Under the pieces are notes generated by a model. It had not been told where the DNA came from. It saw only the letters and a program-made list of their open reading frames with translations, and did not search any database. From Chitinophagaceae bacterium (GTDB taxonomy: Bacteria > Bacteroidota > Bacteroidia > Chitinophagales > Chitinophagaceae), in contig CANLAE010000002.1 in assembly GCA_947488765.1 (NCBI GenBank), positions 62,001 through 126,000 of the forward strand: DNA of 64,000 bases, in the 5' to 3' direction. The stretch's first letter is position 1. Every line of letters starts with the position of its first letter. The translations under genes were made by a program, and so were the position numbers. Shown piece after piece: positions 24,521-60,555 of this stretch.

Positions 24521-25921
24521 TTAACCAAAAAATAAATAGCAAAGCGATACAGAAGTAATAATTCCAACCAAATCTGCAAGCAACATTGTACCAATTGAAT
24601 ATCGTGTATTTTTTATACCCACTGCACCAAAATAAACTGCAACTACATAAAAAGTAGTATCGCTGCTGCCTTGTAAAATACATGCCAATCTTCCGGCAAA
24701 TGAATCCACACCATAAGTACGCATGGTATCAAACATCATTCCTCTTGCGCCGCTGCCACTCAACGGTTTCATTAACGCAGTTGGAATCCCGTCTACAAAA
24801 CGAGTGTCCAAACCAATCGTTCCAAATGCATAACGTAACCCTTGCAACAACACTTCAAAACTGCCACTTGTACGTAACATACTGATGGCTACAAGTATTC
24901 CAACAACGTAAGGAATAATTTTAATGCTCGTTTCAAATCCGCTTTTTGCACCCTGTACAAAAGCATCAAAAATGTCTATTTTTTTATACAAAGCTCCTAA
25001 TACTATCATTATGATAATCAATAAGATAAGTCCGTTACTTAATAAACCTGAAAAGGTTTGCATTGCCGTACTAGATAATCCCGTTAAATACCAAACAAGT
25101 AGCCCAATTAATGCGGAAGCCCCTCCTACCCAAGCCAAAATTACAGGTTGAAACAAATTGATTTTTTGGCGTACTGCAACAATACACATTGCAGCAATTG
25201 TGGCTGCGAAAGTTGCAATCATACACGGAATAAATATATCGGTTGGGCTGCCGGCTTTCACAGAAGCCCTTGCAGCAATAATGGTAACCGGAACAAGTGT
25301 TAACCCGGATGCATGCAAACACAAGAACATTATTTGTGCATTGGAAGCTTTGGTTTTATCAGGATTAATTTCCTGTAAACTTTCCATTGCTTTGATGCCA
25401 AATGGAGTAGCCGCATTATCAAGGTTTAATAAATTGGCAGAAAAATTCATAATCATATGTCCCATTGCCGGATGATTCTTTGGCAACTCTGGGAATAGTT
25501 TTGAAAAGAACGGTCCTACCATTTTTGCAAGAAAACGAATTCCACCTGCTTTTTCGGCTATACTCATTAAGCCCATAAACAAAGCCATAATACCAATTAA
25601 GCCCAAACAAATTTCAACAGCATTTTTACAAGTAGTAATAATTCCATCCGCAATTTGTTCTTTGTAAGTAATGTATTTGCCATCTGCCGATTTGCTAAAT
25701 TTAATTTCTCCACTTTTATACGTTCCATTTGCAGCTATTGCCATTACTGCTTCTTTGGGCATTGAAATACTGTCAATAAACTGTGTATTGGAAGTATCAC
25801 CTTGTTTTCCTACAACCATTTTGGAATAAATTCCTGTGTTTCCATCGGCAAAAAACAACTTAGAAGTTGCAACTAAAATTGCGATTAAAATAAATGCAGA
25901 CCATATTCTACTTAATGCCAT
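24521..25921 (-). CDS. Nucleoside-recognition (Gate) domain protein, fused SpmA/SpmB type
   Basis: A 466-residue polytopic membrane protein in which the halves correspond to SpmA-like (about 95-290) and SpmB-like (about 300-466) Gate domains. Segments include NLLNLDNAATPFGIKAM and, in the second half, RTYGVDSFAGRLACILQGSSDTTFYVVAVYFGA-type motifs. In Bacillus the two are separate spore-maturation proteins; non-sporulating Bacteroidota carry them as one chain, so the name does not indicate sporulation. The hydrophilic residues 30-95 are an inserted periplasmic segment. Transport substrate is unknown. Confidence 0.85.
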   Translation of the reverse strand: MALSRIWSAFILIAILVATSKLFFADGNTGIYSKMVVGKQGDTSNTQFIDSISMPKEAVMAIAANGTYKSGEIKFSKSADGKYITYKEQIADGIITTCKNAVEICLGLIGIMALFMGLMSIAEKAGGIRFLAKMVGPFFSKLFPELPKNHPAMGHMIMNFSANLLNLDNAATPFGIKAMESLQEINPDKTKASNAQIMFLCLHASGLTLVPVTIIAARASVKAGSPTDIFIPCMIATFAATIAAMCIVAVRQKINLFQPVILAWVGGASALIGLLVWYLTGLSSTAMQTFSGLLSNGLILLIIIMIVLGALYKKIDIFDAFVQGAKSGFETSIKIIPYVVGILVAISMLRTSGSFEVLLQGLRYAFGTIGLDTRFVDGIPTALMKPLSGSGARGMMFDTMRTYGVDSFAGRLACILQGSSDTTFYVVAVYFGAVGIKNTRYSIGTMLLADLVGIITSVSLCYLFFG

Positions 25922-25994: not shown

Positions 25995-26014
25995 CACGCA
26001 AATAAATTGTTCCC

Positions 26015-26049
26015 TAACGTACAAAATGTACAAGTGTGCGACGCAACAA
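26015..26049 (+). repeat. Dispersed intergenic element, copy A
   Basis: TAACG (26015-26019), 12 variable bases, then AAGTGTGCGACGCAACAA (26032-26049). The same design recurs at 40463-40492 (plus) and 60325-60359 (minus). The core contains the odd palindrome TGCG-A-CGCA and is GC-rich in AT-rich surroundings. It ends 84 bases before the ychF ATG. Confidence 0.7.
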
Positions 26050-26090
26050 CAGCAAATCGGAGTTTCAAATGCCTGTTACCAAAATTGCGT

Positions 26091-26133: not shown

Positions 26134-27231
26134 ATGTCTTTAAAAGCCGGAATTGTTGGATTACCAAATGTTGGTAAAAGTACTTTGTTTAATGCAGTAA
26201 GTATCAGTGCAAAAGCACAGGCAAGTAACTATCGTTTTTGCACTATAGAACCCAATACAGGCTTGGTTGACGTACCTGATGAAAGGTTGCAGCAATTATC
26301 TGCTTTGGTAAATCCACAAAGGATTGTGCCAACGCAATTGGAGATTGTTGATATTGCCGGTTTGGTAAAAGGTGCAAGCAAAGGCGAAGGTTTGGGTAAT
26401 AAATTTTTGGCCAACATTAGAGAAGTAGATGCAATTATACATGTGATTAGATGTTTTGAAGATGAAAATGTATTGCGTGATGAAGGTGCGATAAACCCGA
26501 TGGGTGATAAAGCAATTATTGATACTGAATTGCAGTTGAAAGATTTGGAAAGTGTGGAAAGAAAATTACAGCGTACCGAAAAAATGGCGAAAACTGATCC
26601 TAAAGCCAAAGTGGAATTAGAAATATTGATGCGTTGCAAAACCCATTTGGATAATGGAGAAAACATACGCAGCTTGGGTTTGAGCAAAGAAGAGCAATTG
26701 GCTGTTGCCGATTTATTTTTATTGACCGAAAAAAGTGTATTGTACGTTGCCAATGTTGATGAAGCAAGTATGCATACGGGTAATAAATTTTCGGAAGCAT
26801 TGAAAAGTGGTGTACAAGGCGAAGGTGCTGAAGTGATTGTAATGTGTAATAATATTGAAGCACAAATTGCTGAAATGGAAGCCGAAGAAGACAAGCAAAT
26901 GTTTATGGAGGAATACAACATGAAAGAGCCTGCTTTGAATAGATTAATACAAACAGCTTACAGATTGTTGAACCTTGATACTTACTTTACAGCAGGCGTG
27001 CAAGAAGTAAGAGCATGGACTATTCACAAAGGTTGGAAAGCACCGCAAGCGGCAAGTGTAATACATACCGATTTTGAAAAAGGATTTATTAAAGCAGAAG
27101 TAATTGCTTTTATAGATTTTATAAAATATGGTAGCGAAGCTGCTTGCAGAGACAATGGCAAACTTCGTATTGAAGGCAAAGAATATTTAGTGCAAGATGG
27201 AGATGTGATGCATTTTAGGTTTAATGTTTAG
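26134..27231 (+). CDS. ychF: Ribosome-associated ATPase YchF
   Basis: Obg-family P-loop protein that prefers ATP over GTP and binds ribosomes; involved in stress responses. 365 residues, usual length. G1 motif GLPNVGKSTLFN is near residue 8, G3 region DIAGLVKGASKGEGLGN near 72, a coiled-coil insertion about 125-200, and a C-terminal TGS domain (about 280-365, with YFTAGVQEVRAW and YLVQDGDVMHFRF). Transcribed divergently from the SpmAB-like gene; the non-coding element at 26015 lies in the leader region. Confidence 0.96.
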   Translation: MSLKAGIVGLPNVGKSTLFNAVSISAKAQASNYRFCTIEPNTGLVDVPDERLQQLSALVNPQRIVPTQLEIVDIAGLVKGASKGEGLGNKFLANIREVDAIIHVIRCFEDENVLRDEGAINPMGDKAIIDTELQLKDLESVERKLQRTEKMAKTDPKAKVELEILMRCKTHLDNGENIRSLGLSKEEQLAVADLFLLTEKSVLYVANVDEASMHTGNKFSEALKSGVQGEGAEVIVMCNNIEAQIAEMEAEEDKQMFMEEYNMKEPALNRLIQTAYRLLNLDTYFTAGVQEVRAWTIHKGWKAPQAASVIHTDFEKGFIKAEVIAFIDFIKYGSEAACRDNGKLRIEGKEYLVQDGDVMHFRFNV

Positions 27232-36985: not shown

Positions 36986-39900
36986 ATGAAAAAACTATTC
37001 TTTTTAGTAGTTTCATATTTATGTACCTACCAAATCGCTACTTGTCAAACCCCAATAAATATGGGCAGCCAGCCTAATTTTTCTTACACTGAAAACTTTA
37101 GTGAAATCAATAATTGGGTGTTTAATTCAGCTCCTGCCAACGGAATTTTTACTGCTGGTATAGGTGCATCAGCCTGGAAAGGAAATGAGGTTAACGCTAT
37201 TGGAAGTGTTCCATCAGCATTAAAAATTGTTACTGCCTCTACTTTTTTTCAAACGCCTCCATCGGGGAGTTTTGGTTATAGTAGCGGAGTTTATAAAGGC
37301 AACCAAAGTTTAATATTATTATCATCCGGTACTACTGATAATAATAATTCTGTAAGTATGGATTTTTTCTTAGACTTCACTGGAGTTAATGCAGGAAACC
37401 TAAGCTTTGACTGGACTTCACTCAATAATTCAACAGGAAATAGGAATGGTTCTTTAAGGGTTTATGCCTCAGTTGATGGAACTACATTTACAGAAATTAC
37501 CGGTGCACAGGTATTAAATTTTACCAATAACCTTGCAACCGGTGGAAGTATAGTAAATGTGGCTTTGCCATCTACATTTAATAATTCAGCAACTGCAAGG
37601 CTGCGATTTTATTATCATAATGGAGTTGGTGGTACATCAGGTAGCAGACCAAGATTAAATTTAGATAATGTAAAAGTTTCTGCATTTCCTACTACACCAT
37701 GTATTGCTCCAACAACTCAAGCTACAAATTTTATCGCTAATACAGTAATTAATAATTCCATCACATTTTCTTTTACTCCTGCTAATCCTGCTCCTCAAAA
37801 CTATTTAATAGTAATGAGTAACAATAATACACTTAGTAGCAATCCTGTTAATAATGTTACATATTCTATTGGAGATAATTTAGGCGATGGCAATGTAATA
37901 AGTATGGGAAGTTCAACAACTATTTCTGCATCTGGATTAAATCCATCTACTACTTATTACTTCTTTGTTTTCAGCATGAACAACCTTTGTACTGGAGGAC
38001 CACTTTATTTGACAACCGATCCACTAAAAGGAAATGCTACTACACTTGCAGGTGCGTTACCATGTGCTACACCTGCAGCACAACCCACCGCTTTGGTTTT
38101 TAATGCTATTACAACAAATAGTATCTCCGGAAGTTTTACTGCTGCTGCTGGAACAGATGAGTATATTGTTATCAAAACTACCACATCTTCATTTACTGGC
38201 ACATTAACCAATGGCACTAATTATAATGTAGGAAATACAGTTGGCAATGGAACAGTGGTAAGCAAATCTGCAGCTACAACTTTTACCAACAACTCATTGG
38301 CAAGTGGGACTTCTTACTACTATTTTGTGTTTAGCATTAACAGTCAAAACTGCACAGGAGCTCCTGTTTACAATACTTCCGGCCCATTGGTGAATCATGC
38401 AAGTACAACTGGATTACCTGCATGTATTACTCCAACTAACCAACCTTCCAATTTGAATTTAGTTGCTTCCAATAATACTGTAAATGGTTTTTATAATGCC
38501 TCAACTACAGCAGATAATTATTTGGTATTAAGAAGTACTTCAGCAACTTTAACAGCATTGCCGGTTACTGGTACAATCTATACTGTTGGTAACAATTTAG
38601 GCAATGCATTAATCATTCAAAAAGATGCCAATTTATCCTTTATAGATATTGGGCTTTCGCCAAGTACTGCTTACTATTATTTTGTATTTGCAAACAATAT
38701 TAATTGTGTAGGAACTAATCCAACATATCTAACACTAAACCCTTTATCATCTAGTGTTACAACAAGTGCAGTTGCAGTAAATAATTATTATTATGGAAAT
38801 CTACATGCACATTCTTCTTACTCAGATGGCAATCAAGACAATGGCGCATCAACCCCGGCTGATAATTATGCTTATGCAAAAAATAGTTTGTGCATGGATT
38901 TTTTAGGCATCTCCGACCACAACCATGCAACAGCAGGAATGAACATCAACAACTGGCAACCGGGTATCGCTCAAGCTACAGCAGCTACTACAAGTAATTT
39001 CCTTGCATTGTATGGAATGGAATGGGGAGTTATCAGCAATGGGGGGCATGTTTTAATTTATGGAACCAATCAGTTAATTGGCTGGGAAACCAATAACTAC
39101 AATACTTACGTTCCTAAAAGTGATTACATAGGTACATTGCAAACCACAGGTGTGAATGGTCTTTTTAGAACATTAAATAACTTGGGTAATAATTGTTTTG
39201 CAACATTTGCACACCCAGGTTATTCTGATTATAACAATCTGGGAAATTCACCTCTGAATCCAATAGCTGATAGTGTTGTTGTGGGCACTGCAATAGCAAG
39301 CGGTATTGCTTTCAGCACAAATACTACCTACTCTGACCCACCAAGTGCTTACGGATATATTGATTATTATACAAGAATGTTAAGTAAAGGATATCATATT
39401 GGACCATTGATGGACCACGATACACACAACACAAACTTTGGCAGAAGCAGTAATAATAGGTTGGTAGTAATAATGCCTTCACTTACAAGTGCAAATTTTT
39501 ATACTGCCATGAGAGGAAGAAATTTTTATGCAACAGAAGATTGCGATACAAGAATTTCTTTTACCCTTAACAATCAAATCATGGGTAGTAATTTTTCTGG
39601 GAATACTAGCCCTGCTATTAATGTATATGCCACAGACCCTACAAATCCCTCACTTATCCCAACTATCAAATTAATGTTTGGCATTGCCGGAAGTAATATT
39701 TTACCAGTACAAATTACCAGCATTAATGCAAGTACATTATCTTATACTGATTATAGTCTTGCAAATAATGTAAATGGATATTATTATGTAGATGTTACAA
39801 TTGGAGGCAATAGATCCATCTCTTCACCAATTTGGTACAAAAAAAATACTACAGTACCTGTAAACTTGATAAACTTTTCAGCATCTCTGCAAAGTAATAA

Positions 39901-40405
39901 AGATGTTGCAATTCAATGGACAACAACGCAGGAAATAAATTGTAAATCATACGAGTTACAACGTGCTGAAGATGGTGTAAACTTTACTACTCTATTTGTT
40001 GAAAATGCAAAAAACACAAATGGCTACAACTATTATAATTACAGGGATTTACATGCTTTTAATGGAATTAATTATTACAGATTAAAACAAACAGATGTCG
40101 ATAATAAAATAACATTCAGTAAAGTAGTTGCCATCAATATCAGCAAAAGCTCCATCAATTCTGTACAGGTTTACCCCAACCCTATTCGTGATTATTTAAC
40201 ACTTAATATTCATTCAAATACCACAGAAAAAGCAAGTATTGCTATAACAGACATGTTGGGAAAAGTAGAACTGATTCAGGAAATTAATTTAGTAAAGGGA
40301 AATCAAATTTCTTCAATTAATACAACCGGATTAAGCAAAGGAAATCACCTGATTACTTTGAGATGGAAACAAGAGCCTATCAGTATTCAATGTATGAAAT
40401 ACTAA
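36986..40405 (+). CDS. Secreted PHP-domain phosphoesterase with T9SS type A sorting domain
   Basis: A 1139-residue protein. Signal peptide ends ATC|Q near residue 20. A beta-sandwich (about 30-225) and three similar fibronectin-III-like repeats (about 235-590) precede a PHP metal-dependent phosphoesterase domain (about 600-840): HAHSSYSDG, SDHNH, GMEWG, AHPGYSD and MDHDTHN supply the expected His/Asp/Glu ligands. A connector beginning VPVNLINFSA and a T9SS type A domain (VYPNPIRDYLTL) end the chain. A PHP enzyme exported to the cell surface could act on phosphodiesters or phosphorylated sugars; its substrate is unknown. A terminator overlaps its stop. Confidence 0.85.
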   Translation: MKKLFFLVVSYLCTYQIATCQTPINMGSQPNFSYTENFSEINNWVFNSAPANGIFTAGIGASAWKGNEVNAIGSVPSALKIVTASTFFQTPPSGSFGYSSGVYKGNQSLILLSSGTTDNNNSVSMDFFLDFTGVNAGNLSFDWTSLNNSTGNRNGSLRVYASVDGTTFTEITGAQVLNFTNNLATGGSIVNVALPSTFNNSATARLRFYYHNGVGGTSGSRPRLNLDNVKVSAFPTTPCIAPTTQATNFIANTVINNSITFSFTPANPAPQNYLIVMSNNNTLSSNPVNNVTYSIGDNLGDGNVISMGSSTTISASGLNPSTTYYFFVFSMNNLCTGGPLYLTTDPLKGNATTLAGALPCATPAAQPTALVFNAITTNSISGSFTAAAGTDEYIVIKTTTSSFTGTLTNGTNYNVGNTVGNGTVVSKSAATTFTNNSLASGTSYYYFVFSINSQNCTGAPVYNTSGPLVNHASTTGLPACITPTNQPSNLNLVASNNTVNGFYNASTTADNYLVLRSTSATLTALPVTGTIYTVGNNLGNALIIQKDANLSFIDIGLSPSTAYYYFVFANNINCVGTNPTYLTLNPLSSSVTTSAVAVNNYYYGNLHAHSSYSDGNQDNGASTPADNYAYAKNSLCMDFLGISDHNHATAGMNINNWQPGIAQATAATTSNFLALYGMEWGVISNGGHVLIYGTNQLIGWETNNYNTYVPKSDYIGTLQTTGVNGLFRTLNNLGNNCFATFAHPGYSDYNNLGNSPLNPIADSVVVGTAIASGIAFSTNTTYSDPPSAYGYIDYYTRMLSKGYHIGPLMDHDTHNTNFGRSSNNRLVVIMPSLTSANFYTAMRGRNFYATEDCDTRISFTLNNQIMGSNFSGNTSPAINVYATDPTNPSLIPTIKLMFGIAGSNILPVQITSINASTLSYTDYSLANNVNGYYYVDVTIGGNRSISSPIWYKKNTTVPVNLINFSASLQSNKDVAIQWTTTQEINCKSYELQRAEDGVNFTTLFVENAKNTNGYNYYNYRDLHAFNGINYYRLKQTDVDNKITFSKVVAINISKSSINSVQVYPNPIRDYLTLNIHSNTTEKASIAITDMLGKVELIQEINLVKGNQISSINTTGLSKGNHLITLRWKQEPISIQCMKY

Positions 40406-40440
40406 AAAAGTCTCGGTAAATTATTACCGAGACTTTTTTA
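40403..40440 (+). terminator. Strong bidirectional terminator
   Basis: TAAAAAAGTCTCGGTAA (40403-40419), 4-base loop, and its exact complement (40424-40440) with six U in either direction. Begins at the stop codon of the PHP gene; also faces the end of convergent hutH. Confidence 0.92.
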
Positions 40441-40462
40441 GTACTATAACAATAATGGACAT

Positions 40463-40492
40463 TAAAGTTTAAAAACCCGAAGTGTGCGACGC
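40463..40492 (+). repeat. Dispersed intergenic element, copy B
   Basis: TAAAG (40463-40467), 12 bases, then AAGTGTGCGACGC (40480-40492). Same spacing as copies A and C, but the AACAA end is replaced by CGAG. GCCGAG (40491-40496) has an inverted partner CTCGGC (40520-40525). Confidence 0.6.
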
Positions 40493-40536
40493 CGAGAAAG
40501 TTGAATAACGATTTACTGCTCGGCTCAAAAAAATAA

Positions 40537-42033
40537 TTAATCCAGCTTTAGTTTTTGAATGAAAGCAATTGCTTTCACCATATCGTTATGCAATATCCTA
40601 TCTGCATTGTTAAAGCTAATTTCTTTTCTGAAATCAGTAATAATTTTTTCGAGTACGGGTGAGGTTTGCAATGGTCTTCTAAACTCCAATGCTTGTGCTG
40701 CTGTGAGTAATTCTATTGCCAAAACTTTTTCTACATTGTTTATTACACGCAAACATTTGGTAGCGGCATTTGCGCCCATACTTACATGGTCTTCTTGGTT
40801 GTTGCTAGATGAAATACTATCAACACTTGCGGGTGTGCAAAGTTGTTTGTTTTCGCTTACTATTCCGGCAGCGGTATATTGAGGAATCATGAAGCCGGAA
40901 TGCAGTCCGGGATTGGAAACTAGGAATAATGGCAAGCCTCTTTGTCCGCTGATAAGCTGATACGTTCTGCGTTCGCTGATGTTGGCAATTTCACTCATGG
41001 CAATGCTTAAAAAATCAAGGTGCAATGCAAGTGGTTGACCGTGAAAATTCCCTCCGCTAATGATTAAATCTTCGTCAGGAAAAATATTGGGATTATCGGT
41101 AACAGCATTAATTTCTGTAAGAAAAACTTGCAGCACATTTTCGAAAACATCTTTGGTAGCACCATGTACTTGCGGTACACATCTAAAACTATATGGATCT
41201 TGTATTTGCTGCTTTTTATTGGCAGCAATGGTACTTTGTGCAAGGTAACTTCTGATTGTAGCTGCTGTAGCTATCTGTCCTTTATGAGGCCGTACACGAT
41301 GAATGGCTTCGTGCAAGGGTTGTGAGCCACAATCAAAGGCATCAAAACTGATTGCAGCAATAGCATCGGCAAGTTTTAATAATTGTTCTGATTTATGCAG
41401 GCAATACATTCCGTATGAAGTCATGAATTGAGTGCCATTGATTAATGCTAGTCCTTCTTTGCTTTGCAAAGCAATCGTATTTATTTTTCCTTGCTGCACC
41501 AATTGCTTAGCTTCAATTTTTATTCCGTTTTCATACACTTCACCCAAACCAATTAATGGCAAACATAAATGCGACAATGGCGATAAATCTCCACTTGCAC
41601 CTAAAGAACCTTGAGTGTAAACTACAGGCAATACATTTTGATTGCACAAGTTTTTCAAAGCATGAACAGTTGCCAATTGAACACCGCTATGGCCATAGCT
41701 AAGACTTTTAATTTTTAGCATCAGCATCAAGCGAACAATCACAGCCGGAACTTCTTCTCCTAAGCCACAAGCATGACTCATTAATAAGTTATATTGTAGT
41801 TGTTCTATTTGAGATTTATCTATTTGTACATTTTGCAAAAAGCCAAAACCTGTGTTGATACCATAAAATAATGAATCATCTTCAATTATTTTTTTATCAA
41901 GAAAATTGCGGCATTTAACAATACGTTGTTCCGCATCCTCAGCAATAGCAATGGTTACAGGGTTATTGATAAAATTTTTTACTTCCTCGAAAGAGAGTAA
42001 ATCATGGTGAATTTGAAGTGTATTATTTTGCAT
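40537..42033 (-). CDS. hutH: Histidine ammonia-lyase
   Basis: Removes ammonia from histidine to give urocanate, the first step of histidine use. About 498 residues, usual length. The MIO cofactor forms from the Ala-Ser-Gly of QGSLGASGDLSPLSHL near residue 145. Other family segments: FYGINTGFGFLQN near 55 and the central QEDHVSMGANAA near 414. I use the ATG at 42033; an in-frame TTG 12 bases upstream is not needed. The other hut genes are not in the window. A TACTTTGC box lies just upstream of the start on the minus strand. Confidence 0.96.
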   Translation of the reverse strand: MQNNTLQIHHDLLSFEEVKNFINNPVTIAIAEDAEQRIVKCRNFLDKKIIEDDSLFYGINTGFGFLQNVQIDKSQIEQLQYNLLMSHACGLGEEVPAVIVRLMLMLKIKSLSYGHSGVQLATVHALKNLCNQNVLPVVYTQGSLGASGDLSPLSHLCLPLIGLGEVYENGIKIEAKQLVQQGKINTIALQSKEGLALINGTQFMTSYGMYCLHKSEQLLKLADAIAAISFDAFDCGSQPLHEAIHRVRPHKGQIATAATIRSYLAQSTIAANKKQQIQDPYSFRCVPQVHGATKDVFENVLQVFLTEINAVTDNPNIFPDEDLIISGGNFHGQPLALHLDFLSIAMSEIANISERRTYQLISGQRGLPLFLVSNPGLHSGFMIPQYTAAGIVSENKQLCTPASVDSISSSNNQEDHVSMGANAATKCLRVINNVEKVLAIELLTAAQALEFRRPLQTSPVLEKIITDFRKEISFNNADRILHNDMVKAIAFIQKLKLD

Positions 42034-42102
42034 ATGCGACAGCAATTTACTTAAAAGCGCAAAGTAATTTTTTTTATGGAAGAAATTAATTAAAGCCGGA
42101 TG

Positions 42103-58592: not shown

Positions 58593-60555
<1,963 letters not shown>

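Follow-up and report, generated by a model that had tools for sequence, protein, structure and literature searches.

REP, BIME and REPIN sequences, the RAYT-associated repeats of E. coli and Pseudomonas, are closest in behaviour to the element reported here, yet the element lacks their hairpin and foot and does not clearly flank a transposase gene. Both are short, intergenic and multicopy, form subfamilies and short-spacer inverted pairs, keep stable positions between close relatives and have a possible link to a HUH Y1 transposase. On the other hand, REPs and REPINs measure 21–65 nt, whereas the element spans ~78 bp. The definition of a REP includes a GTAG/GTGG foot (PMC6006769), whereas a single unit of the element has neither a hairpin nor a GT[AG]G foot and shows only an invariant 4-bp core pairing. 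It also differs in that the only REP-type Y1 gene of the same genome is flanked by another repeat, and in that its core is strongly constrained in stationary copies.

DNA uptake sequences of Neisseriaceae and Pasteurellaceae have a conserved core with species dialects, inverted pairs and a core-genome bias, as does the element, but the latter is a 78-bp copied unit that is confined to intergenic DNA and whose copy number is low and very variable. Like the ends of IS200/IS605-type (HUH Y1) elements or of derivatives shortened by internal deletion, the element faces outward beside some subclass-1.2-like Y1 genes; however, no end structures are reported for subclass 1.2 (PMC6006769), most Y1 loci here carry no element, and genomes with the element but without a Y1 gene exist. 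MITEs of Bacteroidota (e.g., Porphyromonas gingivalis, PMC4596501) are likewise non-coding, dispersed and possibly inverted in arrangement; unlike a MITE or DDE-type transposon, the element occurs as single units without terminal inverted repeats, and neither a target duplication nor a clean empty site came to light. The TAACTGA repeats of Beggiatoaceae and some Bacteroidetes are also abundant, intergenic and near start codons, and some precede essential genes and have been proposed as regulator sites (PMC4679880), but they are tandem heptamers unlike the element in sequence and layout. Exact-string searches of 5.4 million open papers, with subscription papers and figures outside their scope, returned one unrelated paper, and topic searches yielded no prior description. 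Within the literature covered, the element is thus undescribed; it is a real, family-wide repeat whose core is under strong constraint.

Three copies in the window

The window, i.e., the whole stretch of 64,000 nt analysed here, comes from a Chitinophagaceae bacterium (GCA_947488765.1, contig CANLAE010000002.1, positions 62,001–126,000 of the forward strand) whose genome (G000) comprises 2.5 Mb in 37 contigs. A sequence-only reading of the window had proposed that three intergenic regions share TAA(C/A)G, a gap of exactly 12 bases and a fixed core. The pattern TAAMG-N12-AAGTGTGCGACGC indeed matched without mismatches at 26015–26044 (+), 40463–40492 (+) and 60330–60359 (−), where 0.03 matches were expected by chance and no shuffle reached three. 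As that reading had it, an 18-mer ending in AACAA is common to two copies. The copy at 40463 has CGAGA in its place. Only three neighbouring genes, ychF, pyrG and hutH, had their names checked by profile, in each case through NCBIfam.

The first copy (whole unit, −24 to +53 relative to the core, 26008–26085, +; profile R1 match G000:C2:88007-88085) lies between a divergent gene with a nucleoside-recognition Gate domain (24521–25921, −) and ychF (26134–27231, +). Its borders were set by a logo of 61 copies together with the neighbouring gene ends. The core AAGTGTGCGACGC matches exactly at 26032–26044 (+) and is followed by AACAA, while TAACG (26015–26019, +; pattern match and 61-copy logo) falls within a degenerate 5' box with the consensus TGAATAAAG. 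This ychF site is common to a more distant family member (L178) and to the sister species G005.

The second copy (40456–40533, +; profile match G000:C2:102455-102533) belongs to the CCxG...CGAG subfamily, with an exact core at 40480–40492 (+) followed by CGAGA in place of AACAA. It sits in a convergent space, its 3' end 4 bp short of the 3' end of hutH (40537–42045, −), and a hairpin resembling an intrinsic terminator (~40410–40441) is immediately upstream. The gene before it (36986–40405, +) encodes a 1139-aa protein that has a type IX secretion sorting tail and a CehA/McbA-like metallohydrolase region, the latter scoring below threshold.

The third copy (60289–60366, −; profile match G000:C2:122289-122367) has its exact core at 60330–60342 (−), followed by AACAA, and is located downstream of a leader hairpin and ahead of the pyrG start codon (CTP synthase; 58593–60233, −). 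The site is also occupied in G005; in seven other members of the genus, no copy was seen before pyrG. The pyrG leader itself (60399–60441, −; GACCTCTGAAAG...CAAGGTC) was present upstream of pyrG in nine of nine genus members read; it resembles a conserved hairpin and may be an attenuator.

Architecture and copy number of the unit

Far from the few or no further copies that would have counted against the sequence-only reading, the genome-wide search returned 61 exact copies of the 13-mer AAGTGTGCGACGC (34 + 27; reversed control, 0) and ~95 copies with the 82-column profile R1, which was built from sequence only and also recovers core variants such as AAGGGTGCGACGC. The copies are 98% intergenic, with only 4 of ~186 inside an ORF when simple stop-to-stop ORFs, rather than curated gene calls, are counted. 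The description as a dispersed, intergenic and apparently undescribed non-coding element holds.

Reading the 61 copies side by side as a logo gave a unit of ~78 bp, from −24 to +53 relative to the core. A weakly conserved 5' box (tTGcTGAATAaaG) is followed by the core GTAC-AAGTGTGCGACGC-AAC and then by a G that is fixed at +20, and the 3' part terminates in CAtAAAAA. The core can also be written GTAC-AAG[T]GTGCGACGC-AAC, an odd palindrome about a central A, and the shoulder before it reads GTAC, GTTG or CCTG. Allowing one-base slips, the consensus is tTGcTGAATAaaGTT..aacGTAC-AAGTGTGCGACGC-AACAaaaGcTgAATAGtaaTtCTacAGCtgGtaaCAtAAAAA, with weaker boxes at nearly fixed offsets (TTGcTGAATAaaG at −24, the G at +20 and TACAGCnGGnnACAtAAAA at ~+36 to +53). 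The borders were confirmed independently by the stop codons of adjoining genes, which pile up outward of approximately −24 and +53; similarity between the most similar paralogs drops at the same borders. The earlier reading had located the element correctly, and the conserved unit extends well past it on the 3' side.

TAA(C/A)G-N12, although present in all three copies of the window, occurs in no more than 9 of the 61 copies with an exact core, and it is therefore part of the degenerate 5' box and not a second fixed motif. Among 91 elements, 15 have it at exactly N12 and five more are off by one base. What stands of the proposed fixed spacing is that the distances are nearly fixed, with 6.9 indel events per kb of element and 15.5 per kb of intergenic flank (p=4e-7), less than half the rate. 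Small palindromes such as CCCGATAGCTATCGGG were also seen inside or adjoining elements at variable positions (L224, L212 and L215, and the pyrG leaders L155 and L157).

Copying, subfamilies and pairing

Paralog identity inside the unit reaches 0.76 in G000 and 0.90 in UBA4407, compared with an average of ~0.25–0.3 outside. Because it has sharp ends, subfamilies (e.g., CCTG...CGAG and GATGCCAT) and a recent 90%-identical pair in UBA4407, the element is a copied repeat. The sequence-only reading had favoured a binding site over a plain copied repeat; this opposition proved false, since the element is indeed copied and its core is strongly constrained too.

Close neighbours are always head-to-head (−/+), in nine of nine cases in G014 and 10 of 10 in UBA4407 and UBA7600. 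The close pairs of G000 are arranged likewise, some of them between co-directional genes, and head-to-head pairs fold as long hairpins. This pattern of pairing and copying is REPIN/BIME-like. With regard to replication polarity, strands appeared mixed by eye along the single contig of G014. At three UBA4407 loci (L270, L189 and L205), head-to-head pairs have a common self-complementary middle module, and the whole pair may be what is copied there.

Both sides of the odd palindrome change together between two subfamilies, so the earlier emphasis on it was justified. In the sister subfamily GCG-A-CGC becomes GTG-A-CAC, and over 224 copies the paired positions are C-G in 204, T-A in 18 and other in two. 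As this is essentially one subfamily split, the paired change counts as approximately one event.

Distribution and core dialects

At least 116 stretches of GTDB genomes contain an exact 21-base form, with the same layout. All of these listed matches belong to Chitinophagaceae/Chitinophagales or to loosely named Bacteroidota/Sphingobacteriales MAGs, and they include the genera Segetibacter, Flavisolibacter, Paracnuella, Pinibacter, Longitalea, Lacibacter, Niastella, Hydrotalea, Terrimonas, Ferruginibacter and Parafilimonas. We also scanned 61 related genomes with the profile. Each of the 10 genomes of the genus gave matches, whereas the distribution in the rest of the family is patchy, with matches in 16 of 27 genomes (a single one in two of them). 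The 24 genomes that represent other families of the order gave none. As far as tested, the element is restricted to Chitinophagaceae. Copy number ranges from at least 150 in G014 down to ~10 in some congeners, and loci of UBA4407 and UBA7600 carry ~0.2 additional exact-core copies per kb. A second core, AAGTGAGTGACACAAC, set in the same scaffold, dominates G012 (244 exact copies; control, 0), where the first core has 20.

Fixed positions and constraint on the core

G005 is a sister species whose pyrG is 96% identical to that of G000, the two being 8–10% apart. Nearly all copies of G000 were at the same places in G005, giving 83 aligned ortholog pairs. Across these pairs, only 8 of 746 sites at core positions +4 to +12 had changed (1.1%), compared with 701 of 5500 in the element body (12.8%), 1031 of 9769 in the intergenic flank (10.6%) and 633 of 8832 in the coding flank; a caveat to this comparison is that 61 copies of G000 were picked by their exact core and those of G005 by profile, although only seven G000 copies were partnerless. 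Changes were similarly rare in cores facing gene starts (4/504) and in cores facing convergent stops (4/233). The core is therefore constrained about ten-fold regardless of the direction of adjoining genes, and in this lineage the element is now vertically inherited at fixed places. Among unshared copies of the two species, no clean empty site and no target duplication were found, the regions being rearranged without a clean junction.

Within the genus, sites at genes that we take from their sequence to be fusA, sucB, purM and lpxC are common even to low-copy genomes. Sites common to more distant family members, with both neighbours and the orientation kept, include those at ychF (L178) and nuoI (Lacibacter luteus, L204), as well as three further locus pairs (L007/L208, L042/L211 and L012/L248). 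At these intergeneric sites the core is kept and the body has diverged.

A suggestive link to Y1 transposases

IS200-like genes with DH[ILV]H...YIxNQxxHH, the motif of subclass 1.2, which has been described without end structures (PMC6006769), adjoin elements at five loci of high-copy genomes, mostly with the elements facing outward. Elements are on both sides only at the tandem pair of L425, which is locally element-dense, and on one side at L423, L426, L427 and L437. At L415 and L424 the elements face inward to the Y1 gene. Furthermore, most Y1_Tnp loci examined were without an element, the first 21 loci yielding one weak match, and G005 carries elements although it lacks any Y1 gene. For these reasons the link is suggestive only; given how element-rich UBA4407 is, chance Y1 neighbours are expected there.

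The REP-type Y1 gene of G000 (182 aa, NHVH...YLHENP; L059, contig C13) was considered as the mover and rejected, because the repeat flanking it on both sides differs from the element. This repeat (L059, 1118–1190 and 1979–2052) reads TAATTTCGGACACAGTCCGA...CACAAGTGACCCGCAATAGCGGAAsACTTGCGCCAGTGA, and one copy occurs in G005 (L367).

Origin and possible role

The account to which we give roughly an even chance is that all three sites belong to a single ~78-bp intergenic interspersed repeat of Chitinophagaceae that would be recognised as DNA, through its core, by a putative protein. The unit was evidently copied and diversified. A mover may have recognised the core, with copying through a palindromic REPIN/BIME-like unit, possibly by a HUH Y1 transposase acting in trans. 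A putative chromosomal DNA-binding protein would still use the core, perhaps in local chromosome organisation or expression, which would be why old copies keep it; such continued use is suggested because stationary copies keep the core irrespective of gene context. Both the binding partner and the function are what we infer from these patterns. Several observations count against this account, namely the sense bias and housekeeping neighbours described below, which a purely orientation-independent role leaves unexplained, the elementless, inward-facing and Y1-less cases together with the lack of a clean empty site, and the paired palindrome change being essentially one split; moreover, the analysis identified no binding protein.

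Alternatively, the element might act in cis on housekeeping genes, as an activator site or mRNA-leader element just before start codons that acts downstream, a reading we consider rather unlikely. Sense orientation is favoured in co-directional spaces by about 2:1 (39:19 in G000, 46:23 in family loci and 85:42 combined), and the genes downstream presumably include many housekeeping ones, judging by their sequence, such as fusA, tuf, groEL, secA, atpA, nuo and tRNA synthetases. Sites shared across species are also mostly upstream of housekeeping genes and in sense. Given this bias and these neighbours, a regulatory role is possible at some sites. However, about a third of the copies are directed toward a convergent gene's end and have cores equally constrained, and the pyrG copy is missing in seven congeners. 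The sequence-only reading had also suggested a promoter element, and we rejected one with fixed distance and direction because promoter boxes hold no fixed relation to the unit: among 61 sense copies, TAnnTTTG boxes were upstream of 18 and downstream of 10, and in family loci the counts were 3 and 15. A hidden coding frame (..VQVCDAT..) was rejected as well, with stops throughout, equal rates in the three phases and a ts:tv of 1:1.

It is less probable that the element is only the relic of a selfish repeat with no host function, its core having been conserved as the recognition site of the mover until recently. The subfamilies, sharp ends, palindromic pairs and patchy distribution are those of a repeat family, and the information content far exceeds the need for locating ~100 sites. 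Small bacterial repeats are usually expected to decay after movement stops, and a relic would decay evenly. Here, in contrast, stationary copies in species 8–10% apart keep the ten-fold constraint: the body changes no more slowly than the sequence around it, and a core of 9–13 bp is held at more than 80 loci simultaneously. Intergeneric sites keep the core despite their diverged body, and G005, having no Y1 gene, suggests that constraint persists without a candidate mover.

A 'genome word' that biased recombination maintains, such as a DNA uptake sequence, would account for orientation-independent constraint, core dialects dominating different genomes, head-to-head pairs and the association with core genes, but we find it very improbable given a 78-bp unit with subfamilies and copy borders in place of a short word, ~10 copies in some congeners and near-absence from coding sequence. 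A structured RNA, as an independent ncRNA or leader motif, had also been proposed from the window and is scarcely tenable: the nearly fixed length with few indels, the long hairpins of pairs and a 2–3 bp core dyad covarying between subfamilies would suit it, but Rfam gave no family at gathering or relaxed thresholds, mutual information over 61 copies links neighbouring columns only, the RNAalifold consensus has four invariant core pairs and no covarying pair, double compensatory changes between orthologs are at background level, and copies lie in both orientations relative to genes.

Returning to the preferred account of a repeat whose core would still be bound, a broader form of it can be put forward only tentatively. 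The element may represent a family-wide recognition system of Chitinophagaceae, in which a dedicated putative protein would bind tens to hundreds of fixed intergenic copies of a 78-bp composite site, independently of gene orientation. The site would have arisen from a REP-like repeat of a new kind that has core dialects. The constrained loci include copies facing gene ends, and some are common to several genera. The element thus offers a natural experiment on a repeat becoming a constrained site, and its core is a concrete bait for protein discovery. One site has apparently flipped, as Niastella vici (L243) and Longitalea arenae (L264) have the element between the same neighbouring genes in opposite orientation.
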